DNA of 64,000 bases, taken from Bacteroidota bacterium. Lineage in GTDB: Bacteria; Bacteroidota; Bacteroidia; Bacteroidales; Lentimicrobiaceae. Made by a program: the position numbers and the translations under genes. The notes under the pieces were generated by a model, which made no database searches, was not told where the DNA came from, and saw nothing but the letters and a program-made list of their open reading frames with translations. Where the stretch lies: contig WSXU01000007.1 in NCBI GenBank assembly GCA_009773455.1, positions 1 through 64,000 of the forward strand, given 5' to 3'. Of the stretch, positions 661 to 26,591 are shown in pieces (position 1 is the stretch's first letter; every line of letters begins with the position of its first letter).

Positions 661-690
661 GCGGTGACTCATCCATTCCAAAATCCTTTG

Positions 691-698
691 TACCTTTG
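691..698 (+). promoter_or_regulatory. Probable -7 box for leuS
   Basis: TACCTTTG matches the Bacteroidota -7 consensus TAnnTTTG and lies 26 bases before the leuS ATG. I do not see a clear TTTG -33 element at the expected distance. Confidence 0.5.
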
Positions 699-724
699 CG
701 CCCTCTAAAAACAAAGCAGACCCA

Positions 725-3508: not shown

Positions 3509-4069
3509 GCAGTGATTCCGGTTAATTGACGAAAATCTAAAAGATTGATCTTGAGACAAGCCTGCCCGCCGAAACAGCATACAGGCAGGGAGAATGGTGG
3601 ACAAGGCGAATTTACCGGTACCCGTGTCTTACGGTTCAGCGACGAGACCCCCATTAGCAGGAAGTCCCCGTTTCTCCATTTCCCCATTTCCCTGTGTCCC
3701 CTTGTCCCATGGTTCAGAGACGAAACCCCCATTAGCAGGAGGTCTCCGTGTCTCCATTTCTCCATTTCTCTATTTCCCCGTGTCTCCGTGTCCCCTTGTC
3801 TCAGGGTTCAGAGACAAAACCCCATTAGCAGGAGGTCTCCATTTCTCCATTTCTCTATTTCCCCGTGTCCCCGTGTCTCAGGGTTCATCGACGAAACCCC
3901 CATCAGCAGGAGGTCTCCATTTCCCCTTGTCCCCTTTTCCCCTTGTCCCCATTTTCTCAGTGTACCTTAGTGCTCTCAGTGCCTTCGTGGTGAAGAAAAC
4001 GGGCCGGGTAAAAGAATAACCGCTCAATAAGGACGCTCAGAAACAGTCAGCCCAATCCGGGGAGAATCG
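3509..4069. repeat. Tandem pyrimidine-rich repeats with a GGTTCAG...ATTAGCAGGA core
   Basis: There is no gene between leuS and the next CDS. A core reading GGTTCAGnGACGAAACCCCC then ATTAGCAGGAGGTCTCC starts at about 3633, 3711, 3804 and 3882, so spacing alternates near 78, 93 and 78 bases. The spacers are runs of TCTCCATTTC and CCCCTTGTCCCC on the plus strand. The same core occurs in reverse orientation at about 47250-47290 and 47430-47465. A short GCCTGCCCGCC...GGCAGG inverted repeat is at about 3560-3595. Frames opened across the array are repeat-derived. Confidence 0.85.
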
Positions 4070-4077
4070 TATTTTTG
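4070..4077 (+). promoter_or_regulatory. Probable -7 box for the queuosine transporter gene
   Basis: TATTTTTG matches TAnnTTTG and sits 29 bases before the ATG at 4107. No convincing -33 element was found. Confidence 0.4.
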
Positions 4078-4106
4078 CTGCCGGAACCGATCAAACCACC
4101 CTCCCG

Positions 4107-4808
4107 ATGCAGGCAAACCCATCCCCTAAAAGCGGAAATTTCCGCTATTTCGACATCATCATGGCGCTGTTCGTGGCTGTGCTGCTGATTTCCAACCTGG
4201 CTTCCACCAAGATCCTTTCGCTGTGGATGTTCACCTTCGACGGTGGCACCATCCTGTTTCCGCTCAGCTACATCTTCGGCGATATCCTCACCGAGGTATA
4301 CGGTTACCAGCGCTCGCGCAAGGTGATCTGGACCGGGTTCGGGGCGGCACTGCTGATGTCGCTGGTGCTGTGGGTGGTGCAGGTGCTTCCCCCGGCAACC
4401 GACTGGCCCAACCAGCAGGCCTATGAATCGCTGCTGGGCTTCGTTCCCCGCATTGTGCTGGCCAGCCTGCTTGCCTATTTCGGCGGTGCCTTCTCCAATG
4501 CCGTGATCCTATCGCGGCTGAAGGTCAGGATGAAAGGCCGCCACCTGTGGGTACGCACCATCGGCTCTACCCTGGTGGGCGAAGGCATCGACACCGCCAT
4601 CTTCTGCCTGGTGGCCTTTTACGGCACCCTGCCCAACGAACTGCTGATCTCCATTATCATCTCCAACTATATCTTCAAATCGGGCGTAGAGGTGCTCTTT
4701 ACCCCCCTCACCTACCGCATCGTCGGCTTCCTGAAAAAACACGAACAGGTGGACGCCTACGATACCGGCATCAGCTACAACCCCTTCGGGTATTTTGTGA
4801 AGGACTGA
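4107..4808 (+). CDS. yhhQ: Queuosine precursor transporter (YhhQ/DUF165 family)
   Basis: Integral inner-membrane protein of 233 residues with about six hydrophobic segments. The family imports queuine or preQ0/preQ1 for queuosine modification of GUN-anticodon tRNAs. Diagnostic blocks are the N-terminal ISNLASTKI (about residues 28-36), LFPLSYIFGDILTEVYGY near 50-67, and GEGIDTAIFCLVAF near 157-170, followed by SNYIFKSGVEVLFTPLTY. I see no queuosine biosynthesis gene beside it and no preQ1 riboswitch in the short leader. The gene is more GC-rich than many neighbours but is not obviously foreign. Exact substrate cannot be read from the sequence. Confidence 0.9.
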   Translation: MQANPSPKSGNFRYFDIIMALFVAVLLISNLASTKILSLWMFTFDGGTILFPLSYIFGDILTEVYGYQRSRKVIWTGFGAALLMSLVLWVVQVLPPATDWPNQQAYESLLGFVPRIVLASLLAYFGGAFSNAVILSRLKVRMKGRHLWVRTIGSTLVGEGIDTAIFCLVAFYGTLPNELLISIIISNYIFKSGVEVLFTPLTYRIVGFLKKHEQVDAYDTGISYNPFGYFVKD

Positions 4809-5118
4809 AAGCATCGGTATTCCGGGAATTGATCGGACCAACTCAGGCGATGATGGCAACATTGAAGTAATTTATCCACAAAGAATGATGTCAGCAAGGT
4901 ACTGGTCAGTTCCACAGCGATCAGCTGTTTTGTTTAAAAATCTTTGACAAATCATGATTGTCCTTTAGAAGTCTGATCCTTTCCGCCCCCCTTGCGAAGC
5001 CAGGTAAACATTATTTTAAGACTTAAATTTAACTACCTTTTGTATATTTATGTCATAATTATTTAATCCCTCTACCTGTTAAAAAATAAAAAAAGTCTGA
5101 TTACACAATCTACATGCC
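4809..5118. other. Gene-free interval
   Basis: These 310 bases are AT-rich, with no open frame, hairpin or repeat that I can support. They presumably contain the promoter of the secreted protein gene starting at 5119, but no clean TAnnTTTG box stands out. Confidence 0.5.
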
Positions 5119-6513
5119 ATGAAAAGATCTGTACTATACATTGTTATTGTCCTTCTGGCCTTCCAATCCGGACTCAAAGCTCAGTCGTGCCCGCCTTTTG
5201 ACATCCTTTTTGAATCCCAGTCCCAAATTGACAGTTTCCCGATTCTTTATCCTGATTGCAGGGTTATTGAAGGAAATCTTGCAATAGACGGCTGGGATGC
5301 CGGCGATGACCCTATCGTTTCACTCCACAGCCTCTTCAGGATAACCGAAATCCAGGGAGACCTGACCATTATGAACACTTTTGAACTGAATTCCCTGCAG
5401 GGACTTGAAGGCATTACGAGTGTCGGCGGCAGGGTGTACATAGCTTTTACCTCCCTGGATTCCGTGGCAGGCCTGGATAACCTTCAATATGTAGGTGAAA
5501 GTCTGCAGATTGCTCAAAACAGCTCCATGCAGAACCTGCATTCACTGAAGCGGCTTCAGCATGTAGGTGACGGACTTGCCGTTATGTCCTGCGGTCCGAT
5601 TCAAAACCTCAACGGACTGGATTCCCTTTCCTATATCGGTCAATACTTACTCCTTGGCTATCTCTACCAGTTCACCAGTATGCAAGGGATGGACAGGATC
5701 AAAAAAATTTCCGGCTATTTAAAGATTGAAAACCTTCCCCTGTTGACAGATTTGCATGGACTGGAAACCATTGATACGATCGCGGAAGACCTTATCCTGA
5801 CCAACAACCAAAGTCTCCGTAGCCTCACAGGCCTCGACAACCTGAAAGATTTGGGCGGCGGGGTTTATATCAGGGAAAATCCCCTGTTGGTCAATATTGA
5901 TGAACTGAGACATCTCAAAACCCTTGCCTTTGGTATTAGTATAAAATCAAATGCAAGCCTGCAGAACATTTCAGGTCTTGACTCCATCACCCACATTAAC
6001 AATTATAACATCCATATCACTTCAAATGCCTCACTTACCGATATCTCCGGTATACGGAACATTGATGCAGGTTCGGTCTATTTTCTTGAAATAGCGAGTA
6101 ATCCTTTGCTCTCGATATGCGCCTATGAGAGTACCTGCAACTACCTGCAGAATAATCCCGGGTTCTCCAATATAGCTTTGAATGCCCCGGGATGTAACTC
6201 TGATTATGAGGTGCTGGCCCAATGCGAAACGCTTGGCGATGATTCGGGCTTCGCCGGTGACGGGATACAGATCATCCCCTCCCCGGTAACGGAATCTGCC
6301 CTGATCAGGTTCTGTCTGTCTGAATCAGCCCTGGTAAAACTGGATATAATCAATGGACCGGGTGTAGTGGTGACATCCCTGTTGAACCGGGTTTTACCGG
6401 CTGGTGACCATCATGCCGTATGGCTGCCCGGAAATCTTTCTGCCGGATTCTATTTGTGCAGGATACAGGTCAACCACCGGAAGTGGATACGTAAAATCCT
6501 TTATATACCTTAG
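5119..6513 (+). CDS. Secreted L-domain/leucine-rich-type protein with T9SS sorting domain
   Basis: A 464-residue exported protein. Residues 1-21 form a signal peptide ending ...SGLKAQ. Residues about 45-340 are irregular repeats of the receptor L-domain type, each with an IxGDLxI / LxSLxGLExI pattern, e.g. EGDLTI, LTDLHGLETI and LRSLTGLDNL, roughly every 22-25 residues. A cysteine cap lies near 330-355. The last 75 residues (PSPV..., LPAGDHHAVW, LSAGFYLCRIQVN) form a beta-sandwich type A C-terminal sorting domain of the type IX secretion system, so the protein is probably delivered to the cell surface. Ligand and role are unknown. It is monocistronic. Confidence 0.85.
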   Translation: MKRSVLYIVIVLLAFQSGLKAQSCPPFDILFESQSQIDSFPILYPDCRVIEGNLAIDGWDAGDDPIVSLHSLFRITEIQGDLTIMNTFELNSLQGLEGITSVGGRVYIAFTSLDSVAGLDNLQYVGESLQIAQNSSMQNLHSLKRLQHVGDGLAVMSCGPIQNLNGLDSLSYIGQYLLLGYLYQFTSMQGMDRIKKISGYLKIENLPLLTDLHGLETIDTIAEDLILTNNQSLRSLTGLDNLKDLGGGVYIRENPLLVNIDELRHLKTLAFGISIKSNASLQNISGLDSITHINNYNIHITSNASLTDISGIRNIDAGSVYFLEIASNPLLSICAYESTCNYLQNNPGFSNIALNAPGCNSDYEVLAQCETLGDDSGFAGDGIQIIPSPVTESALIRFCLSESALVKLDIINGPGVVVTSLLNRVLPAGDHHAVWLPGNLSAGFYLCRIQVNHRKWIRKILYIP

Positions 6514-6752
6514 TAAATCCACAGGACTGTTTCCCGGCCTTCTGTGCCCGGACTATACCCCTGGGCCAATCCTTTTTGTTCTGAAAGGAGAAGACTTAAA
6601 ACTGCCGGTTCAGCATAACCGATTGCTATATATCCGTTTGCTGCCGGAGCTCTGCTAACCAGGATCGTTTGAAACGGCAGGAGATAAACCCGGACCGGAA
6701 GTCAGGGATTTCAGATATGTGATAAATGAACGGAGGTTCCGTTGGGCAGCCC
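6514..6752. other. Short convergent intergenic region
   Basis: Lies between the plus-strand secreted protein and the minus-strand DUF4287 gene. I see no strong terminator or RNA in it. Confidence 0.4.
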
Positions 6753-7304
6753 CTACCCGGCATTGTCGTAGGCCGCTTTCAGCCAGCCCATCACCTCGGC
6801 ATCGATGTCGCCGTCGCCGGCAATGTTTATTTTGTGCGAGCACATCATACCCGGTTTTTCCACCTCAAGCTTTCCCTGCGGGGGATGACCCTTCAGAATG
6901 ATCCCGATTTCGAACCGGGTCTTGCTGGCCGGCTGCAGGGTGGCAAACTGCTTTTTGCGGCGCAGGCTGACATAAGCGTTCTTGGGTGCGACTTCAATAT
7001 CCCCGCCAAAAGAGAGGATTTCCGACATCAGCCGGTCGTACAACGGCCTGAAGTGCTCCTTGCCCTTGTACTGGCCGGTAATAAGGTCATCGGGGTTCTC
7101 CGCCGATCCGGCATCAGACCCTTTGGCCTTCAGCGCGATCAGGTTGGCAAAACCGTGTGTGAGGCCGTGGGTCTCCTTCAGGAACTTCATCGCCTCCCCG
7201 TGCTTCGCGAAATTTTCCTTCTTTACAATGTCCATCCATTGTTCCAGGGTCCTGCCGGTGTTCCGGTGCAGGTTCTCCATCATGGTTTGTGTCGCCTTGT
7301 CCAT
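6753..7304 (-). CDS. DUF4287/DUF5655 domain protein
   Basis: A 183-residue soluble protein. The N-terminal 65 residues fit DUF4287, with the pattern TGRTLEQWMDIVKKE then KHGEAMKFLKETHGLTHGFANLIAL. The rest fits DUF5655, from about residue 85 (PLYDRLMSEILSFG) through YVSLRRKKQFATLQP to the C-terminus. Proteins with this architecture are common in Bacteroidota and environmental Proteobacteria. The fold is predicted to bind nucleic acid or a small ligand, but no activity is established to my knowledge. It is followed on the same strand, across a palindrome, by a DUF1801 gene; these two families often occur near each other. No signal peptide or membrane segment. Confidence 0.8.
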   Translation of the reverse strand: MDKATQTMMENLHRNTGRTLEQWMDIVKKENFAKHGEAMKFLKETHGLTHGFANLIALKAKGSDAGSAENPDDLITGQYKGKEHFRPLYDRLMSEILSFGGDIEVAPKNAYVSLRRKKQFATLQPASKTRFEIGIILKGHPPQGKLEVEKPGMMCSHKINIAGDGDIDAEVMGWLKAAYDNAG

Positions 7305-7399
7305 GCTTTGATAAATTACTGTTTATGGTCTGCTAAAAACTCCTTTTATGTCCGGATCAACAGGAAAATAATTTTCGTGCTGATTTTGGTGGTTTGGTG

Positions 7400-7417
7400 T
7401 CCCGATAGCTATCGGGA
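7400..7417. repeat. Perfect 18-bp palindrome TCCCGATAGCTATCGGGA
   Basis: A perfect inverted repeat in the space between two minus-strand genes. It has no T-run, so it is not a classical terminator. A relative with the same TCCCG/CGGGA ends is found inside a repeat copy at about 24627-24646. This looks like a REP-like extragenic palindrome. Confidence 0.7.
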
Positions 7418-7476
7418 TGGTGGCTAAAAAGATACCCTCACCAACCTGCCTCCCCGGCATATAGCCCTTTACCGCA

Positions 7477-7899
7477 CTATTTAAACTTCGATTTCAAAAA
7501 GGCCATGTTTTCCCTGATCAGTTGCACCAGTACCTCACGGTTGATGTCCGACAGTTTGTTCACATAGATGCACCCCTTGCCCATTTTGAATTTGCCCAGG
7601 TCTTTGAGCAGCAGCTCCTGCGTTTCGGTTCCCGAGAACACATAGAGCGAAATGGCGGCCTTCCTTGGCGAGAACCCCACCAGCGGCCAGTCGCCCTCCT
7701 GCCGGCTCCGTTCCGATTTATAATGGTAAGTGCCAAAACCGATGATGGAGGGGCCCCACATCTTCGCCTCACAGCCGCTGGCCTCCTGCATCAGCTTCAG
7801 CAGCTCTAAACCATCCTGCCGCTTCTGCTCCGTAACGGCAAAGGCTTCGATAAACGCCCGCACATCGGCATCGGTTTGTTTTGTTTTGATTTCGGCCAT
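7477..7899 (-). CDS. DUF1801 domain protein
   Basis: A 140-residue soluble protein of the DUF1801 (YdhG-like) family. It has the family pattern: a helical start (VRAFIEAFAVTEQKRQDGLELLKLMQE), then MWGPSIIGFGTYHYKSE, FSPRKAAISLYVFSG, and a C-terminal LGKFKMGKGCIYVNKLSDI followed by a helix. The open frame continues upstream to 8025, but the ATG at 7899 (MAEIKT) is preferred. It is preceded by AACAGAGAAT, which contains a plausible AGAG ribosome site, and the upstream residues do not resemble the family. Structures in this family show an iron-chaperone/frataxin-like fold, but function here is not established. Confidence 0.85.
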   Translation of the reverse strand: MAEIKTKQTDADVRAFIEAFAVTEQKRQDGLELLKLMQEASGCEAKMWGPSIIGFGTYHYKSERSRQEGDWPLVGFSPRKAAISLYVFSGTETQELLLKDLGKFKMGKGCIYVNKLSDINREVLVQLIRENMAFLKSKFK

Positions 7900-8701
7900 A
7901 TTCTCTGTTTTTAGGTTTATCTGGCGCCTGGCCCGGATGACCAGCCAACTTATCGTCCACCGATAAATCGTTATGCAACGCTTTCGCCGGCATATATTCA
8001 ACAAGCTGATTGAACGACTGTTCAACAGACGAAAAAAAGATTTATAAATCGGGAGACACCGCCTTCAGCCATGATCTGAGGAGCGATGGGGCCGATCCGG
8101 CCATCAACCCTTTGAACAGAAGATCTGTGCTGAGCGGATGACCAATGATTCAGCGCGACCGGATAAGGGCTGACTGTCTTTATGCCTGACCGGAATTGCC
8201 TTCGAATGCACCGGCAAAGCAGAAATCCGGGGAAGACAAAACCCGATGGTGCGGATGAAAATTACCTTCGTTCATCTGTTTGAGCTATAAAGACAGCCAC
8301 CCTGCCGCTGGTTACAGATAAACGGTCCCGGTTATAATCTGGAGGATCAACTGGATAAACCGCTTCCACGATCGCCAGCCATCCATTTCGGTCCGCGGCA
8401 GTACCCCAGGATTGTTGATTTTATACGCATTCAGACCGGTGAAAAGCGCTGCCAGTTCAACACCGGTGGTGCTTCCCTTTATCTGGGTTTCAGATGAACC
8501 GAACATTGGTCAATTACTACGCTTCGATTTTCGCTTTGATCTATTTTAATAGTTGGTTTAATGCCTTTTCATTGTTGAAAATAATAATCGCAGAGACGGT
8601 AAAAAAGCATCTATTGTTCAAAAATTATTCATACATGTAATACCAAAGAAATTTTTTTTAGATTTGTCCAATCACTATAATTATATTTTAAATTTTATAA
8701 A
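7900..8701. other. Gene-poor interval at the border of an AT-rich island
   Basis: About 800 bases with no convincing gene. The only candidate is a 64-residue minus-strand frame at 8312-8506. Its ending (GWRSWKRFIQLILQIITGTVYL) looks protein-like, but it has no recognised homolog and could be a gene remnant. From about 8520 the composition shifts visibly to AT-rich and stays so to about 16,200, marking the left edge of a probable acquired region. Confidence 0.5.
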
Positions 8702-11700
8702 ATGAAAAATTCAAATTTAGATTATAGCCTAGCAACTATCATAGATCTCTTACTTTTTGAATTCAATAGAAAATACTACCGCTACTCCATTTTTATAGTT
8801 TTAGTATTTTTACTAGTTCTTTTTTTATATCCTGTACTCTGTAATATCTATCTGACGGGAATTGAGAATAAATTAATTATAGTAAAAAGCCTTTGGGGAA
8901 TTTTTGGTGTTCTTGCTTGGTTTATCCTGATTGCATTCTCGAAAAACAAGATATTAATAAAAATCGCAGTATTAGATGTCCTTAATTATGATTCTGCGAA
9001 TAAGTCAATTCAAGTCCAATTGTTACGAACATTCTTAGTATTTCTATCATTCATTCTTTATTCTATAATTAGTATTTTACCTTCCATTCTAATACAGACA
9101 AAAAGAAATGGTCTGAACAATTCAATATTATATGCCATACCGGAAGTTTCAGGCATTTACCTGGTACTTATTCTTCTTACCTTGATCATTTGTTATTCAG
9201 TGTTTCTTTTACCAAGTTCTATTTCGGAAAAGGTAAAGAGTCACAACAACCAGGCGGAAACCGTAAAATACCCGTACATATATTGGTTTTATTTTTTTCT
9301 TCACAAATTAACTGCAAGTCCGGTACTAACCTACTTGCTATTTCCCTTATTTATTGTTAGTAGTTTGACTATCATTCTTTTCCCTTTTGCCGCTGAAAAA
9401 ACAGGGCAGGAACTGCACAATAATTTATTTGATGTTTCGAATTTTTCATTACTAGTTACGATTCTTGGTGTTTGGATAACAACAGTAATTGTAATTATCA
9501 ACGACTTGCTTAAAGATTATTTTAGAATTTATAAATGCTTTGAAGAATATACCACTTTTCAGCTTCATAATAACATCAATAACAATGGAAATTTCAGATT
9601 AGTGATAATTGGATTCGGTAACCTTTCAAGAATTATTAGTGGTCTAGTTCTTCCGATTCTTTTTGATAAAAGAAAATTCGATTTTCATAAGCCGTATAGA
9701 AGAGTTGAGGTAATTATAGATAAAAACTTAAAGTTACGAGTAGTTCCTAAAAGTTTACTAGTGATTGAAAAGGATAGGGCGCTTTTTGAAGAGGTAAGAA
9801 TAGACGAAATGAGTGGATTCACTTATGGGTTTTTAAATGGAGGTGATGCAATTTCTATTGAAGATGATAAAATATCTATTCCGAATTCTACCGCTTTATT
9901 GGGCGTGTGTGGAATAGGTTCTAACATGTCATTATTGCATGAAATAGGAATTGAAAATGCTGGCCTGATTTTGAATACTTCTTCGGATTTGGATATGGGT
10001 TTTAAATTGAAGAAAATCATCGATAATTTATCGACCCGAACAATAAATTACAAACCTATATTGATTTCAACTGTTGAGGATAGCACTTCGTATTCCTTCC
10101 TTGAAAGTGCAAGTAATACTCCAATTTATCCTGTTCATACAGGCAGGATTGAAGGATCTGCATTAGGTAACAGACTTTTCATGTTTTACAATAAAAGCCT
10201 AATTGATAAGTATCAATTAAAGAAGACCTTCATCGCTGGGAATGGTAAATCAATCTATTACATTATTGAAACCTTTAGGCGAAATTTAAAGATTTTTGAA
10301 ACACAAGATTTAGTTGATAAAATTTTAAAAGATGTTTTTTATATTGTCACCATTGACAAATCAATATTGCAAGAATGTTATTATGACAATAGTACAGAAT
10401 ACAAGATTTGGAAAATCGCTTTTCATGATGGACAAACAGTAGATCTTAAGGTTATTGACCTGGATCCGGTGAAGTTCAGTAGCATTATAAAAGTTTGGAA
10501 TTTGGCGAATAAAATGGTTCGAGAGGAATTGAATGCTAAAAAAATGAAGGGAAATTTTGACTCACTGTTTGTCGTATCAACCCAAAACTCTTATGACACA
10601 CTAAGAATAGCCGAGCATGTTAAACAGATTTCAAGTCAAAACATTAATATGGATATTTCAATCTTAATAAGTGTTGCATATGAAATTAAAGATGAAATAG
10701 AAAAAATTATCAAGGATTTACCAAGTATCAATGTCCAAAACGTGAAAAATGGATTCCCTTTTGAAATTAAAGACTTGATAATTAAAAAGAATGCGATAAT
10801 CGGAAGTCAGATTGTTGCAATGGCCGGATTAACTGATCGCTATAATAAAAATGTTCAACCTAAAAGTGAGGCATTAAGCAGTGAAATCATTTATTGCTGT
10901 GAATCTGCACCATATTCTTACTTGAAAGCCCTTATACAAACATCAAATTTATCGATGTGCGAATCAATACCCAATTCTGATATTGTACCTTCACTCTATT
11001 ACAATTATTCATTCCCAATATTAACGCCAAATAAAAAGTACGAAGATACATTTATACTTAGAGTCGACTCTTTTTTAATAAATAATCAAAAATTTGACAA
11101 CACACAAAGCATAAAATCATATTATATTAATAGCTCCGATGAGGTTGAAAAGAATATTCAAAAAATATTAGAAAGAAAGGTTCCAATTGCGGCATGTGAG
11201 AATTGTGGGCACTTTAATCAAAGATGTCCAATCAGTTACAATCATACAATTGATAAGAAAAGGATCGGAAATGTTCCTGAAACTATTGCACAAGGAACGG
11301 ATCGTCTAACTACTTTAGCTACAATTAAAATATGGGCTAATAATGAATCTGTTCCAGGGGCTCTCGCTGTATGTCTTGCTGATTTCTTAATGATTGGGGA
11401 CAAAATTGATTTGAGAAATAACCTTGATGAAAAATTGATTAATATTATCTATGAGTATTGTAGTTTATGTCCTGTTACAAATAGAACCATTGTAAGACTC
11501 TATACAGTCCTATCGGATAAAGACGAAGCTACAATTCAAAAAATAAAACACTTGTTATCTGAAAGAAATATTATCGCAATAAAAATAAAGCCGGCTAACG
11601 ATATTAAAGAAAAAGAAAGTACAAATTCCTGGAATCAATATTCTGAAGGATTATTAAAGTATCTGAATTCTTTTGGAGCTAAAGAAAATTCAATGCATCA

Positions 11701-11803
11701 TTATGAAAAAGTAACACAAGAGCCCCATAATGTGATCATTATAGCAAAGAAAGGCACTCTTGATGATCAAGACAAAATGAAGTATATTGATGAATTGCTT
11801 TAA
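8702..11803 (+). CDS. Large membrane protein with tandem RCK/TrkA-N-like Rossmann regions and a cysteine cluster
   Basis: A 1033-residue protein I cannot place in a named family. The N-terminal 270 residues contain about six hydrophobic segments (near 25-48, 62-82, 106-130, 148-172, 200-232 and 247-267). A cytoplasmic part follows. LVIIGFGNLSR (300-310) has a GxG Rossmann start, with a matching LLGVCGIGSN near 396-405. TFIAGNGKSIYYI at 509-521 and LFVVSTQNSYDTLRIAEHV near 622 look like further Rossmann or RCK strands. This layout recalls ligand-gated K+ channel/Castor-Pollux-type proteins, but I see no TVGYG-type selectivity filter. CxxCx6C at 832-842 and CxxC at 920-923 could bind metal. The gene is AT-rich, faces a SIR2-NTPase gene, and is monocistronic. 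Start: ATG in an AT-rich leader without clear SD. A conflict-related sensor or channel is inference. Confidence 0.7.
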   Translation: MKNSNLDYSLATIIDLLLFEFNRKYYRYSIFIVLVFLLVLFLYPVLCNIYLTGIENKLIIVKSLWGIFGVLAWFILIAFSKNKILIKIAVLDVLNYDSANKSIQVQLLRTFLVFLSFILYSIISILPSILIQTKRNGLNNSILYAIPEVSGIYLVLILLTLIICYSVFLLPSSISEKVKSHNNQAETVKYPYIYWFYFFLHKLTASPVLTYLLFPLFIVSSLTIILFPFAAEKTGQELHNNLFDVSNFSLLVTILGVWITTVIVIINDLLKDYFRIYKCFEEYTTFQLHNNINNNGNFRLVIIGFGNLSRIISGLVLPILFDKRKFDFHKPYRRVEVIIDKNLKLRVVPKSLLVIEKDRALFEEVRIDEMSGFTYGFLNGGDAISIEDDKISIPNSTALLGVCGIGSNMSLLHEIGIENAGLILNTSSDLDMGFKLKKIIDNLSTRTINYKPILISTVEDSTSYSFLESASNTPIYPVHTGRIEGSALGNRLFMFYNKSLIDKYQLKKTFIAGNGKSIYYIIETFRRNLKIFETQDLVDKILKDVFYIVTIDKSILQECYYDNSTEYKIWKIAFHDGQTVDLKVIDLDPVKFSSIIKVWNLANKMVREELNAKKMKGNFDSLFVVSTQNSYDTLRIAEHVKQISSQNINMDISILISVAYEIKDEIEKIIKDLPSINVQNVKNGFPFEIKDLIIKKNAIIGSQIVAMAGLTDRYNKNVQPKSEALSSEIIYCCESAPYSYLKALIQTSNLSMCESIPNSDIVPSLYYNYSFPILTPNKKYEDTFILRVDSFLINNQKFDNTQSIKSYYINSSDEVEKNIQKILERKVPIAACENCGHFNQRCPISYNHTIDKKRIGNVPETIAQGTDRLTTLATIKIWANNESVPGALAVCLADFLMIGDKIDLRNNLDEKLINIIYEYCSLCPVTNRTIVRLYTVLSDKDEATIQKIKHLLSERNIIAIKIKPANDIKEKESTNSWNQYSEGLLKYLNSFGAKENSMHHYEKVTQEPHNVIIIAKKGTLDDQDKMKYIDELL

Positions 11804-11993
11804 CTTTTTTCAAGACTTTTTAGCTTGCAAGTTATGCTGAAAACTATACAGCTATAATTTTATATCTACTAATACAATCTCTAAATCATTTTTCCCAAGA
11901 TTAATTATTAATGGCAATTAATAATAATAAGTGAGAGATAATTAGCATTAATTAACTCTGCTCTAGCAAATAGAGAGGGTGAACAACTTACGA
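11804..11993. other. Convergent intergenic region
   Basis: AT-rich spacer between two convergent genes. TTAATTATTAATGGCAATTAATAATAAT near 11900-11930 is a weak AT inverted repeat that might end transcription from either side. Support is thin. Confidence 0.3.
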
Positions 11994-14309
11994 TCAAAGA
12001 ATTTTCTCAATTTCTTTTAAGAGTCGTCTTGCACGAATATCATATTTTCTCTCCACCCCAATTTCTCTAAGCCAAGTTTTTGATAGTTCAAGATATTCTT
12101 GAGCTGTTGAATCAGTGAATCGTGTATAATATTCTATCGCTTGTTCGGCAAACGTTATTGCATGATACGTTTTTCTTTGATCATCTAAATAGCAACTTTT
12201 TAATATCTGCATACTTCTATCAAGAATACTCCTAACATCAGTTTCTGAACTTGTAGAATTTATATTTGCTTTAAATAATATAATCGCATGCGTATTTTCA
12301 ATTGAGAAGAATCTCTTTTTACTTATTTGTAATGCAAGGTCAATTTTTATTGCAGCCTCTTGGTACTTTTTCATTCTTAATAAATAAAGAGCCGCTTGTT
12401 GTAAAATAAATGGAGTCCTATCCCGAACAAAAACAGAATCATAAAATTCAAGACCCTCTTCCCATTTTGGGAAAGCTTTTACTGCATAAAAACTATCATA
12501 GGCAAATCTTTTAAATACGTGATAATTTGGAATTACGTGTTGAGGTACGTTCATATGAAACTTTTCATAAACAACACCAAAATCAGCATTACTCGCTTGT
12601 GAAATGATAGTTTCGGCTAAAATTTGTGATCTGGGTTGATAATAATCCTGATCCTGTTCTTCGTCAACTATATTACCAACTACTTCATTAACCAGACCTC
12701 TCAATGATTCAAGGAGTTCCAATACTTCGTCATAAGAATCAACATCTTCAAAAAGATATGAATTCGCAACCTCAAAAGAAACTGGCGTCCTACATGCATG
12801 CATATAACATGAAAGAATTAGCATCTCAGACAATATAGGATCCTTTTCCTTCAAATCTTTAATAACAGGCTTATACCTATTTGTAATTTCAGTTCGATTA
12901 ATATTATAATTAACAATTTCGAAAACACTTGGAATGTCAGAAGGTATATTTTGAGTTGTCATTGGGGTTTTCCGCAATGTTTGTGGTATTTTATCATAAA
13001 TACCCTGAATATCTTGAGGAACTAAGTCTGTTGCGTCATAAAACTCAAAAAGATTTTTGGGTAACTTATGTACATTTATATCAACATTATAATATCTGTC
13101 AAATCCAACAAGTTTTATGAATTTGTTACAAGCTAAATTTACAAATGCATCTATATCATTTGTGAAATTATCAACAAAAACTACTGTAGGCGATTTAATT
13201 TCGTTTTTAATAATATTTGTTTTGTTAAGAGTAAGTATTTTATTAAAAACAAAGGCACGACGATATGAACTTATATGCTTTGCAATTTGAAGCAAAAGTG
13301 TTGATTTACCTGAGGCTGGAATTCCTGTGATTACAATGTTTTTTTGTTTCTCAATTAGATTAACAATAATATCATGATGTGATACTTTATAAATCCTGTT
13401 TGATATTATATCAGACCAAATGGGACTAGCTCCCAAGAAAAATTCGTCGATACTTCTTATGCTAATATTCTTTGTTCCTTTGGGAACGCAAGCATCCGGA
13501 TAAAGTTCTTCAAGTGAATCCTTTGATTTATCTTTAGTTTGGTTTGATGAAATTTCAATAGTGCCAAAATATTCAAGAAGTTCTTGTATGTCAGCAATTA
13601 TTATTTTAAAACCTAATGCTCTAAAATATGCCTCCGATCCAGGATCTGATTTCAGTAATACTATCCATTTGTTTTTTTGGTTCACAATAAATTTCGAATC
13701 TCCAAATAATGCTTGAACAGCACCAACATCACTCAAACTATAACCAATAAATAATGATGGAATTTGATTAGCTGAGATACTTAGATTCGCCCAGCCATTA
13801 CGTTGTGAACTAAATGAGGATGAAACATCCTGCATGTTAAATAAAAATCTACTTCCTTCTACTTCGATACTACCATGCAGTGGAATATAGTCAATACAAT
13901 TAGAATCTTGATAACCTAAACCATTAAGAAAAATATTATTTAAGTATTTTTTTGAGACGGAATCAAATACTTTACTGAGTAAATTATCAATATTTGTTGT
14001 GAATATTCTCGGGCAGTTTATTTCAACTATGTTTTTATAAAAATCCGGAAATTCTTTTACATTAAATCTATTTAACAAAAATTTTCTAAGTCCTTCACTG
14101 TCATAAGAATCTATTATTGTGCATACTTTTGTTAAGTCATCAAGATTGTACGAGTTGAATTTAGTTGCAAGCTCATTACAAAGAGTATTGCTTGTTGGTA
14201 GATCAACACCACCACTATCCTTAGCAAAAATTGAGAAGCCTGAGCCCAAGAAAAGATTTACTCCTTCTCGCAAAGTTCGCTCAAAAAGTTCCTTAAGTTC
14301 AATGTTCAT
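11994..14309 (-). CDS. SIR2-like NADase fused to STAND-type P-loop NTPase with helical repeats
   Basis: A 771-residue predicted defence protein. Residues 1-250 are a SIR2-family domain: LFLGSGFS (19-26) for the NAD-binding glycine loop, TTNID (104-108), PLHGS with the catalytic-type His (143-147), and FIGYSLSD (187-194). An NTPase follows, with Walker A GIPASGKST (329-337) and Walker B VVFVD (376-380). The C-terminal 300 residues are helical and TPR-like. SIR2 domains in such fusions (Avs5-like and related SIR2-STAND proteins) are known to deplete NAD+ after phage sensing, causing abortive infection. The C-terminus is the likely sensor. No membrane segment or signal peptide. AT-rich, like its neighbours. 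The spacing to the S-4TM gene (14571, same strand, 261 bases) leaves it open whether they work together. Exact subfamily not resolved. Confidence 0.88.
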   Translation of the reverse strand: MNIELKELFERTLREGVNLFLGSGFSIFAKDSGGVDLPTSNTLCNELATKFNSYNLDDLTKVCTIIDSYDSEGLRKFLLNRFNVKEFPDFYKNIVEINCPRIFTTNIDNLLSKVFDSVSKKYLNNIFLNGLGYQDSNCIDYIPLHGSIEVEGSRFLFNMQDVSSSFSSQRNGWANLSISANQIPSLFIGYSLSDVGAVQALFGDSKFIVNQKNKWIVLLKSDPGSEAYFRALGFKIIIADIQELLEYFGTIEISSNQTKDKSKDSLEELYPDACVPKGTKNISIRSIDEFFLGASPIWSDIISNRIYKVSHHDIIVNLIEKQKNIVITGIPASGKSTLLLQIAKHISSYRRAFVFNKILTLNKTNIIKNEIKSPTVVFVDNFTNDIDAFVNLACNKFIKLVGFDRYYNVDINVHKLPKNLFEFYDATDLVPQDIQGIYDKIPQTLRKTPMTTQNIPSDIPSVFEIVNYNINRTEITNRYKPVIKDLKEKDPILSEMLILSCYMHACRTPVSFEVANSYLFEDVDSYDEVLELLESLRGLVNEVVGNIVDEEQDQDYYQPRSQILAETIISQASNADFGVVYEKFHMNVPQHVIPNYHVFKRFAYDSFYAVKAFPKWEEGLEFYDSVFVRDRTPFILQQAALYLLRMKKYQEAAIKIDLALQISKKRFFSIENTHAIILFKANINSTSSETDVRSILDRSMQILKSCYLDDQRKTYHAITFAEQAIEYYTRFTDSTAQEYLELSKTWLREIGVERKYDIRARRLLKEIEKIL

Positions 14310-14570
14310 ATGAATTTTTCTAAACGATGATAAAATTGTTTCTAAATGGATTCACTAAAGTAATCAAAATATAATATTACTGACATTAGATATTTAAAAT
14401 TATTTGATTTAAAAAAATAATAGTTCTCCTACGCTTTTTCAAGATTTACTTTATAATTTAGTAGATACTCATTTCTTTAAGAATCGGGATTTTTAGATAC
14501 GGTATAATTAAATATTCATATTGTTTTCTGATTTACGATGTTTCAACTATTCATTATATACTGGCGACTT
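14310..14570. other. AT-rich spacer upstream of the SIR2 gene
   Basis: No gene, repeat or terminator is evident. It probably holds the SIR2 gene promoter on the minus strand. Confidence 0.4.
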
Positions 14571-15431
14571 TCATGAGTATTTTTTATTAATTGACTGCAA
14601 ATAATCCTCTGCTATTGCATTCATCCGTTTCTGATACCATCCAAAGAAAAAGTCGGGAACTTTTGCAGATTCTTGTCTTGTAGAATAAATTTCGTCTTGT
14701 ATGTCTCTTAATTCATTTATACTAATATGAGGTTTGTGCCGAATTATTTCATCCAAATGACTTGAGATTGTTTTTCTTTTATTTATAGTTGAAGTGTGTC
14801 CAAATATAAGTGTTATGAAGTGGGAATAAAAAGATAGAATAGAAAAGTAAATTGAAAATATTGTTTTACTATCGGTATTTATAGAAATAAGGAAAATCCA
14901 AAGAGCTATGGTGTATAAAATTAAAAGAACCGTTAACCATTTGCGAAATTCAATTCTCAATTCAATGTCCCATCTCGTATTTGTATGCTGCAGAATTGCT
15001 ATTGAAATCTTCTTAGGTATAGATTCTAAAAGGATTGGTGAGTACCAATCTCTAATCTCTTTCCCTTTATATTGTAAAGAAAACTTAGAAACTTCTGCAT
15101 AGTCTGCTTTCTTTAATGTGGATTTCCATGGTAAATCAAAAAGTGCTGTGTCGAATTCCTCCTTTAATATTGCACCCATTGTTGTATTCCCTTTAAAACT
15201 ATTTGTAAAAATTAGAACTACTACGGTAAGAAGAAAAGAACAACCAAATAAGGTAAGTTTTACTCCGTCATTACAAATTATTATATAGGAAAAAGGATAA
15301 GCAATAGCAAGAAACATTAGAAAATATGTTATGCTTATTTCACCACGTTTTGCTTTAGAATACGCTACTATAGATGCCTTAAGTAATTTAATGAGTTCTG
15401 GGTCGTTTTGTTTACTAAGTATTGGATTCAT
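14571..15431 (-). CDS. S-4TM family putative pore-forming effector
   Basis: A 286-residue protein with two pairs of membrane helices, near 32-52, 58-78, 165-185 and 189-211. Between the pairs are blocks that recall the S-4TM family: EEFDTALFDLPW (91-102), RDWYSP (127-132) and LQHTNTRWDIELR (147-159). This family was described computationally as an effector in nucleotide-second-messenger conflict systems (SMODS/CBASS type), where it is predicted to permeabilise the membrane. No intact nucleotidyltransferase is adjacent. Instead, decayed coding sequence ends 9 bases upstream (see 15441-15660). AGGAAG immediately precedes the ATG and is one of the few strong ribosome sites in the window. The assignment is from motif memory and has not been checked by a profile search. 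Confidence 0.8.
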   Translation of the reverse strand: MNPILSKQNDPELIKLLKASIVAYSKAKRGEISITYFLMFLAIAYPFSYIIICNDGVKLTLFGCSFLLTVVVLIFTNSFKGNTTMGAILKEEFDTALFDLPWKSTLKKADYAEVSKFSLQYKGKEIRDWYSPILLESIPKKISIAILQHTNTRWDIELRIEFRKWLTVLLILYTIALWIFLISINTDSKTIFSIYFSILSFYSHFITLIFGHTSTINKRKTISSHLDEIIRHKPHISINELRDIQDEIYSTRQESAKVPDFFFGWYQKRMNAIAEDYLQSINKKYS

Positions 15432-15437
15432 CTTCCT
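15432..15437 (-). promoter_or_regulatory. Strong ribosome binding site for the S-4TM gene
   Basis: On the minus strand the sequence GACAGGAAG directly abuts ATG. It falls just after the stop codon of the upstream decayed frame, a spacing expected of translationally coupled operon partners. Confidence 0.5.
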
Positions 15438-15440
15438 GTC

Positions 15441-15660
15441 TCAAATTTCAGCTTGGATAAATATTCTCGTAACGATTTTTTGTAATTCAAAAGGATTGTC
15501 TGGAGCATCTACGGATTTATCTTCAGGTGCTTTTACAATTCATACTTCCATAATTGGTGCAAATCATTTTAACTCACGAGGGTCTGAGAAAATTCTAATA
15601 CGCTTGCCTTGAGAAAAAATAAAATAAAATTGTTTCACCTCATATGCTTTTTCAGATTTC
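15441..15660 (-). pseudogene. Degraded 3' end of a gene formerly upstream of the S-4TM effector
   Basis: Read on the minus strand in the frame ending at the TGA of 15441-15443, about 72 codons look like protein. Examples are QGKRIRIFSDPRELK, FAPIMEV and APEDKSVDAPDNPFELQKIV. Two in-frame TGA codons interrupt them, at 15564-15566 and 15540-15542. Further upstream (to about 15900) short coding-like pieces continue but change frame and meet more stops. The terminal codon lies 9 bases before the S-4TM start, as in an operon. In known S-4TM loci the upstream partner is often a CD-NTase (SMODS nucleotidyltransferase), so a dead CD-NTase is one hypothesis. I do not see enough to identify it. Confidence 0.5.
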
Positions 15661-15999
15661 AAATATCAAAGTTGTATTCAAAAGTAATTTTAACTGCTTT
15701 AAAACATGAACAATAACAGTAGAAATGAATTTGTTTTCACGGAAATACTACTTACCACCAATTTGTAAAATTTCCAAACCCAAGATTTCTATACTTTTAG
15801 CACCCCAAAAGACAAATTATTATTTATTGGTTACTTGGCATTGGGAATATTTATTGACTAACAATTTCAATTTCAGCTCAAATGTAATGAGTATTTCTTA
15901 TTTACCAAACATTGGAATCTATTCAACATGCTAAATACTCAAATTTGCGTATTTAATAAAAAGGCATAATTAGATTTATTTGTAATATTGTCCCTTATT
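15661..15999. other. AT-rich interval with scattered decayed coding pieces
   Basis: No intact gene. On the minus strand, fragments such as FISTVIVHVLKQLKLLL read like protein but are broken by stops and frame changes, which fits continuing decay of the gene ending at 15441. Confidence 0.35.
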
Positions 16000-16004
16000 C
16001 TAAT

Positions 16005-16133
16005 GTGGAACACCCTCGCATAGTAATGCAGAGCATCCTCGCATAGTAATGCAGAGCATCCTCGCATAGTAATGCAGAGCATCCTTGCATAGTAATGCGG
16101 AGCACCCTCGCATAGTAATGCGCATTGACTCCT
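16005..16133. repeat. Five-copy 23-bp tandem repeat
   Basis: The unit GCATAGTAATGC followed by AGAGCATCCTC begins at 16018, 16041, 16064, 16087 and 16110. The last two copies carry single-base changes. Each unit contains the small inverted repeat GCAT-AGTA-ATGC. There is no spacer between copies, so this is a minisatellite and not a CRISPR array. It lies at the right border of the AT-rich island. Confidence 0.9.
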
Positions 16134-16176
16134 TATAATTAAGTATAGAAAAATCAGAATAAGTTATCGGAATGCC

Positions 16177-16220
16177 AATAAAAAACCCGCTTATCTCTTT
16201 TTTCAGTCTAAACGGGTTTA
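16177..16220 (-). terminator. Intrinsic terminator of the HU-like gene
   Basis: On the minus strand, AAACCCG (from 16219) pairs with CGGGTTT (to 16183), then a T-run continues to about 16180. The hairpin starts about 20 bases after the stop codon of the HU-like gene at 16240. Confidence 0.75.
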
Positions 16221-16239
16221 GCTTATTCACGAAATCAGA

Positions 16240-16977
16240 CTAAGCTACATTCAAAATGTAATCAAAGAGAAAGGTTCTGGCTTCTTTTAATTTACTTATT
16301 GAAGTAGAAAACTGTGTTGTCAGGCTGATTTTATAATCCCCTGCTGGAAGGTTGGCCGGTACCACGAAGGAGATGTGTGAAGGATCGTTTGTAAGTATTG
16401 AATTCATGGGTATCTGAATAACTTCACCGTTTGCCTGACTAATAAGTGAAATTCCAACACCATTTGCTTCTCCCTCAATCCTCATCTTACTGCCAGTAAG
16501 GTTAACTCCTCCTCCTGGTGTTAGTCGTTTGTTTTCTTCTCCGGAGGTCACATCAATCAACGAATTGATTGCCAGACCTGAAGCAGACAAACCACGTACT
16601 TCAACCGAGGTAGCCCGAACAGAGTTTCGTAGTTCGGCAACCGGTGTTACATTTACATTCAAAGCATGAATATTCGGATCCCAGCGGGCATTGTCACCGA
16701 TAAATACGCCGTTGACCGTAAGGTTAAAATAGCCCAGCCCGAAACGAACCGAGGCGCCGTTGGCAATCTGCTCGATGGCCAGTTGTTTCAACATTTCGAG
16801 CGAGGCCTTCAGGGTAGTGGCACTCAGATCGGTGCGCCGCGATACCGCGATGTTCACAAGATCATCTTCGTTGAGGGAGCGGGTAGTGACAACCCTTCCG
16901 AAGCGATCGTCTTTTCTTTCTGTAAGAACCAGATCCTGTAGTTCTACAATGACACTGCTTTTTTCATTTGTTGCCAT
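16240..16977 (-). CDS. HU/IHF-like DNA-binding protein with Ig-like DUF4469 C-terminus
   Basis: A 245-residue protein typical of Bacteroidota. Residues about 8-115 fit the IHF-like-2 domain of the HU family: LVNIAVSRRTDLSATTLKASLEMLKQLAIEQIANG, then VRFGLGYFNLTVNGVF. A linker is followed by a DUF4469 beta-sandwich (about 130-235): LTPGGGVNLTGSKMRIEG, then FVVPANLPAGDYKISLTTQFS. It is expected to bind DNA, but no specific role is known. The start at 16977 places VIVELQDLVLTERKDD at the N-terminus as in relatives. A clear terminator follows. It lies at the end of a minus-strand run with two membrane proteins. Confidence 0.85.
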   Translation of the reverse strand: MATNEKSSVIVELQDLVLTERKDDRFGRVVTTRSLNEDDLVNIAVSRRTDLSATTLKASLEMLKQLAIEQIANGASVRFGLGYFNLTVNGVFIGDNARWDPNIHALNVNVTPVAELRNSVRATSVEVRGLSASGLAINSLIDVTSGEENKRLTPGGGVNLTGSKMRIEGEANGVGISLISQANGEVIQIPMNSILTNDPSHISFVVPANLPAGDYKISLTTQFSTSISKLKEARTFLFDYILNVA

Positions 16978-17257: not shown

Positions 17258-18286
17258 TCATGGATTCTTGTTTTGCTTTTTGGGTTGTGCTTTTAGTGAA
17301 AAATATACAGCCTTTGTCAAAGGGTTTTTCCCTGCCCGGTCAATTTTAATAAACCGGAATTCATAGGTTTGGTCATTAAAAATGGCTGTCCGGATTCCCG
17401 GAACCGAGAAGGTCATCTGTTGCTTTTTAGTATTTACCATTTGTCCGCTGACCGAGATCAGGCCACTTCCCTGCAGTTCATTCAGTTGTTCCAGTGTTAC
17501 CATGATTTCACCAAATGGACGGTAATAACCAACCTTTAACCAGGTTACCTGCTCAGCAATTAATGGTGAATTCCTGCCATTGCCGGTGATCTCCTTTTGC
17601 ACCTGGTTCAGGGTGTCCATCTGTTTCACCACTGCCCTAGTTTCTTTGGTTACACGGAGTTCTTCAGTTAACGCATTGATTTTCTGTCTGATTTTGGTCC
17701 GTTTCCCCTCATTTTCTTCGGTACTGAGCTGGTTTTCAAGTAAAATCAAGTTTAGCTCAGCCCGTTTCAGGTTTGCAAGATCCCTGGAATTGATTTTATC
17801 CTGTTTGCTATTGATTTCCCTTCGGGCATTCTCCAGTTGGAGGAAGGATTGATAATACCGGATTAACCGTTCACGATCGTACTGAGAGAGCAGCAGGGAG
17901 TCCCTGATCAATTCGTAGGCGATGCTCGATTTGTGTTCCAGGGTAGCCAGGCTATCATCAAACTCGCTTTTCAGCTTGTCTATCCTTTCGAGTTTGGTCA
18001 GCAGCAGGGTTTCTTCATTGATACGATTGGTCGCATCGTTGGTGCTCCGGGTTGAAAGAAAAGAAATGATGGTAATAATGGCCGTGACCAGGATACTGAA
18101 GGCTGTAAGAACCGAACTGGTCAGGTTTCTTTTGTAATCTCTTTTCTGCCGGTCACGTTCTTCTTCGATTTTACTTTTTTCGATGTCCAGCCGCTGTTGT
18201 TCGAAATTGTGCTCGATTTCCCTTTTCAGCTTCTGGTTTTCCAGCAGAATCCTTTCCTGCTCAGGGGAATGAATATCATTTTCCAT
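17258..18286 (-). CDS. Membrane-anchored coiled-coil protein, function unknown
   Basis: A 342-residue protein I do not recognise. Residues 10-52 are a charged coiled coil. One transmembrane helix lies at about 56-78 (SSVLTAFSILVTAIITIISFL). A long heptad-rich coiled coil runs from about 85 to 240, with many Leu/Glu/Lys/Arg. The C-terminal 90 residues look globular and beta-rich (SGLISVSGQMVNTKK, MTFSVPGIRTAIFNDQTYEFRFIKIDR). No signal peptide. The layout suggests an inner-membrane scaffold or sensor. It shares strand and neighbourhood with the HU-like gene and the 18722 protein, but spacing is too wide to call an operon. Confidence 0.7.
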   Translation of the reverse strand: MENDIHSPEQERILLENQKLKREIEHNFEQQRLDIEKSKIEEERDRQKRDYKRNLTSSVLTAFSILVTAIITIISFLSTRSTNDATNRINEETLLLTKLERIDKLKSEFDDSLATLEHKSSIAYELIRDSLLLSQYDRERLIRYYQSFLQLENARREINSKQDKINSRDLANLKRAELNLILLENQLSTEENEGKRTKIRQKINALTEELRVTKETRAVVKQMDTLNQVQKEITGNGRNSPLIAEQVTWLKVGYYRPFGEIMVTLEQLNELQGSGLISVSGQMVNTKKQQMTFSVPGIRTAIFNDQTYEFRFIKIDRAGKNPLTKAVYFSLKAQPKKQNKNP

Positions 18287-18721: not shown

Positions 18722-19558
18722 TTAGCTGACAATAAAGATACTTATATAGGAAGGCGTAGGGTTTTGGCCACCTCGGTTAATCTTAAAACCAAGGTCGAAA
18801 CTATTGTTCAATTCATTAGCAATTTCCCTTTCATTTGGGGAGTCAACACGAAACTGGTTCTCTTTTATGCGATAGCCCGCTTGATCATTTGTAGTCTTTT
18901 TCAGCATTTTCACTTTTACGGTATAAAATGAAGATTCTATTTGGCTTGAAAGATCATTAGCCCGATTTAGTAATGCATCATTCCCTTCAAGATAAAAAAT
19001 ATCAATTCTAATAACCTCATCATTTGATTTTGAAGCCGGAGGAACAACAACTAAACTTTTATCAAGGGCCGTGTTTTGCCTTACCAAAATATCCCGTTTC
19101 ACTTCATCCTCAGGTGTAATACTATCCTTACTATCAATAACCTTGATTTTTTCATTGTTTGAGTTAAACAATTCACGATTGTGTTTTAATATCTTTTGAT
19201 AACTCTGCCAGGATTCTTTTAATTGCCCTTCTGGCGAAACTGCCGCAAAATACTCGCATAGTAGCCAACGTTCTTCTATTCCTTCAACTTGAGTTATCGT
19301 GCTGACATATTTATCAAATACTTCTATTTCTTTCATGTCTTGCTCTCGCTCCTTAAAACTATCTGTTATAATTGCAGCTAATGACACCATTCCTACAGAC
19401 ACTATAAACCATTTGCCCAGATCAATCATTTTATCAAGGCGAGCATCTTCAATCAGCTTTTTTCGAATCAGATAATAAATGAATATAACCCAACCAAGTG
19501 ATATTATAAGAAATGTACTACCAATAATAAAAGAGAGTTGTGAAGTATTACTAAACAT
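18722..19558 (-). CDS. Membrane protein with two N-terminal helices and soluble C-terminal domain
   Basis: A 278-residue protein of unknown function. Hydrophobic helices lie at about 9-31 (FIIGSTFLIISLGWVIFIYYLI) and 48-68 (GKWFIVSVGMVSLAAIITDSF). A helical middle segment (70-180) is rich in Glu and Lys. A C-terminal alpha/beta segment (about 185-278, VIRIDIFYLEGNDALLNRANDL...) resembles in outline the LytR_C or OmpA-like alpha/beta folds that end with FKINRGGQNP and YISIFIVS. That comparison is by eye only. AT-rich relative to the surrounding housekeeping genes. Confidence 0.65.
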   Translation of the reverse strand: MFSNTSQLSFIIGSTFLIISLGWVIFIYYLIRKKLIEDARLDKMIDLGKWFIVSVGMVSLAAIITDSFKEREQDMKEIEVFDKYVSTITQVEGIEERWLLCEYFAAVSPEGQLKESWQSYQKILKHNRELFNSNNEKIKVIDSKDSITPEDEVKRDILVRQNTALDKSLVVVPPASKSNDEVIRIDIFYLEGNDALLNRANDLSSQIESSFYTVKVKMLKKTTNDQAGYRIKENQFRVDSPNEREIANELNNSFDLGFKINRGGQNPTPSYISIFIVS

Positions 19559-24416: not shown

Positions 24417-24477
24417 CGCTTTGGTCGCTTCACTTGTGGTAAGCCATTCGAACAATCGCCCGAATATACTGAGCTCT

Positions 24478-24807: not shown

Positions 24808-26562
<1,755 letters not shown>

Positions 26563-26583
26563 AAAATCTGATTTTGGAAGGCG

Positions 26584-26591
26584 CAAAATTA
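26584..26591 (-). promoter_or_regulatory. Probable -7 box for aspS
   Basis: On the minus strand this reads TAATTTTG, matching TAnnTTTG, 22 bases before the aspS ATG. Confidence 0.5.

Follow-up and report, generated by a model that had tools for sequence, protein, structure and literature searches.

An RCK-like membrane protein of a rare family in a well-supported defence island of a Lentimicrobiaceae bacterium

The gene block and its site

We analysed a stretch of 64,000 nucleotides (the window) from a Bacteroidota bacterium of the family Lentimicrobiaceae (GenBank assembly GCA_009773455.1, contig WSXU01000007.1), in which three genes between positions 8702 and 15431 encode an RCK-like membrane protein of 1033 residues, a SIR2-STAND protein of 771 residues and an S-4TM protein of 286 residues. 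That the block at 8.5–16.2 kb is a defence island, as a preliminary description of the DNA had proposed, is well supported by its foreign composition, by the defence families that it encodes and by the different defence genes found in the corresponding interval of a congener. The block and the genes that frame it comprise the following features, identified from open reading frames (ORFs) and profile matches:

8702..11803, + strand: 1033-residue RCK-like multi-pass membrane protein of a rare family (ORF; relatives only in genomes G037 and G368)
11994..14309, − strand: 771-residue SIR2-STAND protein with Avs5-type architecture (ORF, Pfam, motifs)
14571..15431, − strand: 286-residue S-4TM predicted pore-forming effector (Pfam PF18159, E 2.9e-47; nine PADLOC 4TM effector models)
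15432..16239, no strand: stretch without a credible gene (ORF list; third-position G+C)
7477..8025, − strand: left anchor, DUF1801 gene (Pfam PF08818; same anchor pair in contig 56 of congener G011)
16240..16977, − strand: right anchor, HU-Ig (DUF4469) DNA-binding-type gene (Pfam PF14848, PF14734)

All three ORFs of the block are full length and free of internal stops. The SIR2-STAND and S-4TM genes, both on the − strand, lie 261 bp apart, and the three genes are not a single operon, because the gene of the 1033-residue protein, on the + strand, converges on the other two.

The G+C content is 0.302 over 8541–15940, as against 0.515 over 1–8500 and 0.471 over 23001–64000, and the block is the 7.4-kb stretch of lowest G+C in the window (0.301), the minimum for stretches starting to the right of 23 kb being 0.425. 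Third-position G+C is 0.20–0.27 in the three block genes, and among the four left-hand genes checked it is 0.69–0.80 in three and 0.53 in the remaining one. The AT-rich three-gene block of the preliminary description therefore stands out from both flanks, and the uniform composition named there as an argument against an island was not found; its right-hand limit did not hold, the low G+C continuing in a milder form past 16.2 kb (0.31–0.44 per kb) up to 23 kb. The defence-family genes end by 16.2 kb, as the proteins encoded at 17258–18286 and 18722–19558 gave no PADLOC match at E ≤ 1, while the 916-residue protein at 19835–22585 lay outside that scan. Both matchless proteins, encoded to the right of the HU-Ig gene in the zone of milder low G+C, have a hydrophobic segment and, by eye, stretches of coiled coil, with no Pfam match above cut-off. 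A 23-bp tandem repeat (4.7 copies, 95% matches) occupies 16014–16121, between the S-4TM and HU-Ig genes.

On another contig of the congener G011, the HU-Ig and DUF1801 genes occur in the order and orientation of the window, 13.9 kb apart. At the DNA level the HU-Ig gene of the window is 76% identical to its G011 counterpart, the sole full match among seven congeners; such a match is absent from the other six. The G011 anchors enclose a type IIG restriction-modification gene (PADLOC, 3e-277), a HEC-01 pair (6e-165 and 3.5e-82), a gene for an unmatched protein of 278 residues and genes for Peptidase_S41, cNMP_binding, Abhydrolase_3 and ADP_ribosyl_GH proteins. A single genome here gives direct evidence that differing defence genes are taken up at the site flanked by the two anchors.

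The wider region is bracketed by a Vut_1 gene (4107–4808) and an aspartyl-tRNA-synthetase-type gene (24808–26586; the name AspS is our own reading), 20 kb apart in the window. In the seven congeners the same distance is 2.8, 2.8, 2.8, 2.9, 5.7, 8.1 and 9.4 kb (five of the seven intervals were read) and the relative orientation of the two genes is opposite to that in the window, which is therefore rearranged at this region relative to all seven. Upstream of the Vut_1 gene, at 3621–3950, there are degenerate tandem repeats of 77–93 bp. Three short segments of the same region (about 7366–7433, 24476–24516 and 24603–24666) match many dispersed places in the congeners at about 76–97% identity, apparently as a genus-wide interspersed repeat.

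The SIR2 domain fused to an NTPase, read from the sequence in the preliminary description, was recovered by Pfam: the 771-residue protein matches SIR2_2 (PF13289; 28.4 bits, cut-off 24.5), nSTAND_NTPase5 (PF25199; 46.3 bits, cut-off 34) and, barely over the cut-off of 27.2, nSTAND3 (PF20720; 27.5 bits). Its motifs are intact (GSGFS at residue 22, TTNID at 104, LHG at 144, Walker A GIPASGKS at 329 and VFVDN at 377). As the same Pfam families and SIR2 motifs (GxGxS, TTNxD, HG/NG) are given for Avs5 in PMC12931631, the protein is classed as Avs5-type by its predicted architecture. For C-terminal repeats there was one weak match, to TPR_2 (E 0.48, residues 635–664). Among the PDB sequences, the SIR2 part matched KomC (E 6e-4 by sequence, 1.3e-5 by profile) and ThsA (8.5e-4 by profile), and no chain named Avs5 was among the matches listed. 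The protein was matched only in its own genome among 198 genomes of the phylum, and no relative was found in viral contigs. A homologue is encoded on the Oscillospiraceae plasmid CP141730.1 (30.6% identity across 93% of the query), with the SIR2 motifs, Walker A and many positions of the C-terminal part in common; it adjoins genes for Ku, DNA ligase and DNA polymerase IV.

The S-4TM assignment was likewise confirmed, with a Pfam score of 161.9 bits against a cut-off of 26.9. Nineteen columns are identical across this protein and five homologues, and neither end is gapped, so the protein is not truncated. Homologues were found in 55 plasmid records, of which four were opened; in all four a SMODS gene adjoins the S-4TM gene, directly upstream in three and directly downstream in Persicobacter (263 residues, SMODS 1.4e-37). 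In the window, no CD-NTase ORF was recognised on either side of the S-4TM gene, the interval 15432–16239 being the side that holds the SMODS gene in three of the four opened records. The genome, which is 95.4% complete, gave no SMODS match in a search that matched 3 of 14 control genomes and covered neither the other nucleotidyltransferase nor the mCpol families. In genome G034 (L015 1495–3819), the S-4TM gene is followed after 6 nt by a gene encoding EAD11 and pentapeptide repeats, and the 3.9 kb fetched contain no ORF of SMODS size; this arrangement suggests that partners other than SMODS may be possible. Given this neighbour in G034, and a genome with no SMODS match beside the S-4TM gene or elsewhere, the window effector either works with another partner or is an orphan. 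A candidate CD-NTase remnant upstream of the S-4TM gene (a frame with three stops; a SMODS-like match by tblastn, E 0.011, among many short ones) was not accepted, because the match is short, lies in a frame other than the one first noticed and is too close to the S-4TM start.

The 1033-residue protein and its relatives

The largest protein of the block is predicted to consist of a membrane part followed by cytosolic domains, as follows:

8786..9499, + strand: about six predicted transmembrane helices (residues 29–47, 59–77, 113–131, 152–170, 208–226 and 248–266; hydropathy scan)
9581..10198, + strand: putative divergent RCK_N (TrkA-N-like) domain with two insertions (about residues 294–499; hhalign against RCK profiles)
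10211..10741, + strand: putative second, Rossmann-like alpha/beta domain (about residues 504–680; AlphaFold2 fragment model)
10769..11803, + strand: C-terminal part without a recognisable family (residues 690–1033; Pfam, PADLOC, NCBIfam, PHROGs)

In line with the preliminary description, which recognised no family for it, the protein gave nothing above the Pfam cut-offs, nothing at E ≤ 1 in PADLOC or NCBIfam and nothing at E ≤ 0.1 in PHROGs; the family is new to the libraries searched. Relatives are encoded in G037 (1089 residues) and G368 (1078 residues), with 25–29% identity over most of the length, and besides the source genome these two were the only ones to have a relative in overlapping sets of 198, 393, 395, 395 and 118 genomes. 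A pattern scan of 84,980 species genomes returned the same two relatives (2 of 137 pattern candidates); such scans may overlook distant relatives, so the family may be larger. No relative of the 1033-residue protein was found in viral contigs, phages or plasmids, nor of the G368 protein (L006) in plasmids, and the PDB sequences held none either for the protein or for the fragment profile. Several weak matches were set aside. A profile match to the designed protein Top7 in the PDB (E 1.1) was judged to be due to chance, three short genome matches to the membrane part (48–73 residues, E 1.2e-4 to 2.0e-4, two of them with stops) were rejected as membrane-composition noise, and two long ORFs with weak TrkA_N matches (L051 and L052) are by eye unrelated multi-domain proteins with no tblastn match to the 1033-residue protein.

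All three family members have six hydrophobic segments ahead of the cytosolic part, a count for which overlapping windows were merged and weak cytosolic segments (301–319 in the window protein, 705–723 in L006) were excluded. The last two of the six helices are separated by only 14–37 residues, and 33–37 residues past the last helix the family has GFGNLS, GFGYIS or GHGNYG.

The preliminary description had spoken of Rossmann/RCK-like regions, and a likeness to RCK (TrkA-N) domains was found in the first cytosolic domain, one that is remote but supported by the domain-level comparisons. These postdate a profile comparison with 24 full-length TrkA proteins, which was not significant (P 0.045), and the favourable result is one among several designs. 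With hhalign, domain 1 matched RCK profiles at P 0.0007 and 0.005; when the profile was built from 58 RCK_N domains of related genomes, the value was P 0.005 and a collinear second segment aligned at P 0.03, as against P 0.52 for the reversed control. The score with the 58-domain profile (24.4) was not reached in any of 200 column shuffles (maximum 18.6). In a comparison of 31 families, self included, built from the loci then at hand, domain 1 scored 34.5 with the cluster of TrkA and channel RCK domains, versus 21.9 for the next of the 30 non-self families, and again none of 200 shuffles reached that score (maximum 22.1). Pfam TrkA_N was not reported for the protein at E ≤ 1, and two insertions in domain 1 (about residues 320–350 and 370–405) may explain why standard models fail to detect it.

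For the second cytosolic domain, an RCK identity found no backing by sequence: alone, it was not significant against RCK, 15 of 200 shuffles reaching its score. A Rossmann-like fold is proposed for it with modest confidence from an AlphaFold2 model of residues 290–722, which lends weak support (pLDDT, the predicted local distance difference test, 52.8; predicted template modelling score 0.57) and in which ten-residue pLDDT means run from 54 to 82 over residues 510–669. In a Foldseek search, the best 50 of 1059 PDB matches included many NAD(P)-dependent dehydrogenases, at E 2.5e-3 and worse. A model of the full-length protein was discarded (mean pLDDT 39).

In G368 the gene of the relative and hsdM/hsdS are divergently oriented, about 1.1 kb apart (Pfam N6_Mtase 6.7e-60, Methylase_S 3.3e-45). 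Past these genes lie one for a trypsin-like peptidase fused to a non-specific endonuclease (L006 912–3077; weak PADLOC match to RT-Protease_XI) and then one for a protein with HTH and Peptidase_M78 domains; on the other side, about 4.3 kb from the relative, a PycTM/2TM-like protein is encoded (2.9e-10). In both relatives the gene has a lower G+C content than the surrounding DNA (0.253 vs 0.302 and 0.331 vs 0.374).

Readings of the block

We tentatively read the block as a horizontally acquired defence island at a variable site, made up of at least three separate modules, in which the 1033-residue protein would be an RCK-gated pore or transporter acting as a stand-alone defence effector; taken as a whole, this reading is possible but falls somewhat short of being probable. 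In the first module, by homology, the C-terminal part of the Avs5-type protein would sense an infection cue, the STAND NTPase would act as a switch and SIR2 would deplete nicotinamide adenine dinucleotide (NAD+). The second would be the S-4TM membrane effector, its CD-NTase lost or not needed. In the third, the 1033-residue protein, with about six helices, a divergent RCK domain, a second Rossmann-like domain and the C-terminal region, would bind a ligand changed by infection, which would alter the cytosolic domains so that the membrane part opens or closes, and the resulting ion flux would stop phage growth or kill the cell. The gating assembly, the ligand, the ion flux and the defence role of this protein we infer, as we do everything beyond an RCK-like membrane protein in a defence island. 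The preliminary description had suggested a sensing of nucleotides or NAD derivatives and a change of membrane permeability, and both would be conjectural steps of this kind. RCK domains switch channels or transporters in response to ions or nucleotides, according to PMC6957272, and in CASTOR two tandem RCK domains gate a pore without K+ selectivity, according to PMC6697748; by analogy, the protein may be a membrane protein gated by a ligand. A patchy spread, a foreign composition and the defence genes that adjoin two of the three family members suggest that it is used against phage, probably on its own. A precedent in a congener, the TrkA-N + RyR protein of G011 encoded beside a STAND gene and described below, also favours this reading. 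That the 1033-residue protein represents a new class of antiphage effector, with a six-helix pore that lacks the TxGYG filter and a tandem RCK-type ring that reads an infection-changed nucleotide or NAD-derived signal, bringing BK- or CASTOR-like gating into bacterial immunity, we consider unlikely, if conceivable.

A number of observations weigh against so specific a role. With three members, the family is too small for guilt by association or for proof of function, and TrkA_N was present in all 41 genomes tested, RCK domains being ordinary housekeeping parts. None of the three members has a K+ filter motif ([ST]x[GA][YFLIV][GA]) in its first 420 residues, conduction being inferred. The GxGxxG segment aligned with RCK at P 0.33 only, in a query of two domains, and the best alignment of that query with the TrkA cluster (36.4, 0 of 200 shuffles) fell within domain 2 and matched a different part of TrkA; this alignment is probably spurious, and because it passed the shuffle test as well, the test alone is no proof of a right alignment. 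Foldseek gave no match at E ≤ 1e-3 among PDB and viral models, and no RCK chain was in the best 50 PDB matches referred to above. In the G368 stretch hsdR was not recognised, and three ORFs on the other side of the relative have no Pfam match. The G037 relative has as neighbours two sugar transferases, a glycosyl transferase, a polysaccharide-synthesis protein and a DDE transposase; of the 12 other ORFs listed there, nine were scanned, without a PADLOC match at E ≤ 0.001.

The 1033-residue protein might instead be an RCK-regulated ion or osmolyte transporter or channel of ordinary physiology that happens to be carried in variable islands, the SIR2-STAND and S-4TM genes being unrelated passengers, an explanation that we take seriously while doubting it. 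The usual role of RCK domains is the regulation of K+ channels and transporters (PMC6957272 and PMC2920069), the surroundings in G037 would suit such a protein, and in the 18–20 kb fetched around the G037 and G368 genes there is no relative of SIR2-STAND or S-4TM. Against it, defence-type genes adjoin two of the three members, rarity and patchiness are unusual in a housekeeping transporter, and the same site in the congener takes up defence genes. The consistent housekeeping context that the preliminary description had named as contrary evidence was not seen, one relative lying beside hsdM/hsdS and the other amid polysaccharide and transposase genes. A single system of three genes that act together is imaginable, in which SIR2-STAND alters NAD+ or makes an ADP-ribose product that is sensed by the RCK-like protein, by S-4TM or by both. 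The genes are adjacent and match in low G+C, RCK domains can respond to nucleotides (PMC6957272), and a congener has an apparent two-gene conflict system: in G011 (L053 2507–6000) the gene of a TrkA-N + RyR protein of 559 residues lies upstream of a DUF4062-NACHT STAND gene, at a distance of 17 nt, so that in this genus RCK-type proteins are found together with STAND genes. Joint action is nonetheless very improbable and was not borne out, as the 1033-residue gene is convergent, neither relative has the other two genes within the stretches fetched, the sole SIR2-STAND homologue found (CP141730.1) has no relative of either within 14 kb, and no RCK-like neighbour accompanies five S-4TM homologues in the 3.9–8.9 kb fetched.

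Decay of the island, with S-4TM as an orphan remnant of a CBASS type (cyclic-oligonucleotide-based antiphage signalling system) and the 1033-residue gene as a non-functional passenger, would fit a genome with no SMODS match, the lack of such an ORF beside S-4TM and the 0.8 kb upstream of it, with no credible gene and the short SMODS-like match already mentioned. We regard it as quite unlikely, as the three ORFs are full length without stops, the SIR2 and P-loop motifs are intact, the S-4TM protein is not truncated and keeps its 19 columns, and G034, with EAD11-pentapeptide downstream of its S-4TM gene, indicates that other partners are possible. We thus retain, tentatively, the reading of separate modules with the 1033-residue protein as a stand-alone effector.

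Comparison with known systems

The island is real and ordinary in kind. If the reading of the 1033-residue protein is correct, the RCK gating that serves K+ homeostasis and Ca2+ signalling would also switch an infection-triggered membrane effector; the accessible parts of the open-licence literature on RCK, TrkA or RyR with defence or conflict did not describe an RCK-domain protein as a phage-defence effector. The three family sequences are direct targets for a phage-challenge test and, should the reading prove wrong, the DUF1801–HU-Ig interval can still serve to mark a variable defence site.

The 771-residue protein resembles Avs5 (AVAST type 5) in its SIR2 (PF13289) and nSTAND3 (PF20720) matches and in the order and positions of the SIR2 motifs and Walker A, which are similar to those of PaAvs5-1. 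It differs in that PADLOC-DB 2.0.0 gave no Avs model at E ≤ 1 (the Avs content of that library being unchecked), in its weakly TPR-like C-terminal repeats and in having KomC and ThsA, not Avs5, among its PDB matches. As in CBASS with an S-4TM effector, the S-4TM protein of the window is of normal length with the conserved positions kept, but it has no recognised adjoining CD-NTase gene in a genome with no SMODS match.

A general class of TrkA-N + RyR proteins paired with STAND NTPases is said to have been described by Burroughs et al. in 2015. The G011 pair would belong with it, and parallels our locus in that a TrkA-N protein, with hydrophobic N-terminal segments by eye, adjoins a STAND gene; the G011 protein is, however, roughly half as long, contains RyR and is encoded on the same strand as its STAND gene at a short distance, whereas the 1033-residue protein has no RyR match and its gene converges on the STAND neighbour.

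A further close comparison is with RCK-regulated channels and transporters (MthK, BK, KtrAB, TrkAH and CASTOR/POLLUX), the last of which have two tandem RCK domains and a Ca2+ pore. From these the 1033-residue protein differs by having no K+ filter motif and so short a spacing between its last two helices, by the two insertions in its first domain, by a long C-terminal region with no family and by the silence of Pfam TrkA_N. What it would share with them is the order of its parts, helices being followed by a domain remotely like RCK_N and then by a modelled Rossmann-like domain.

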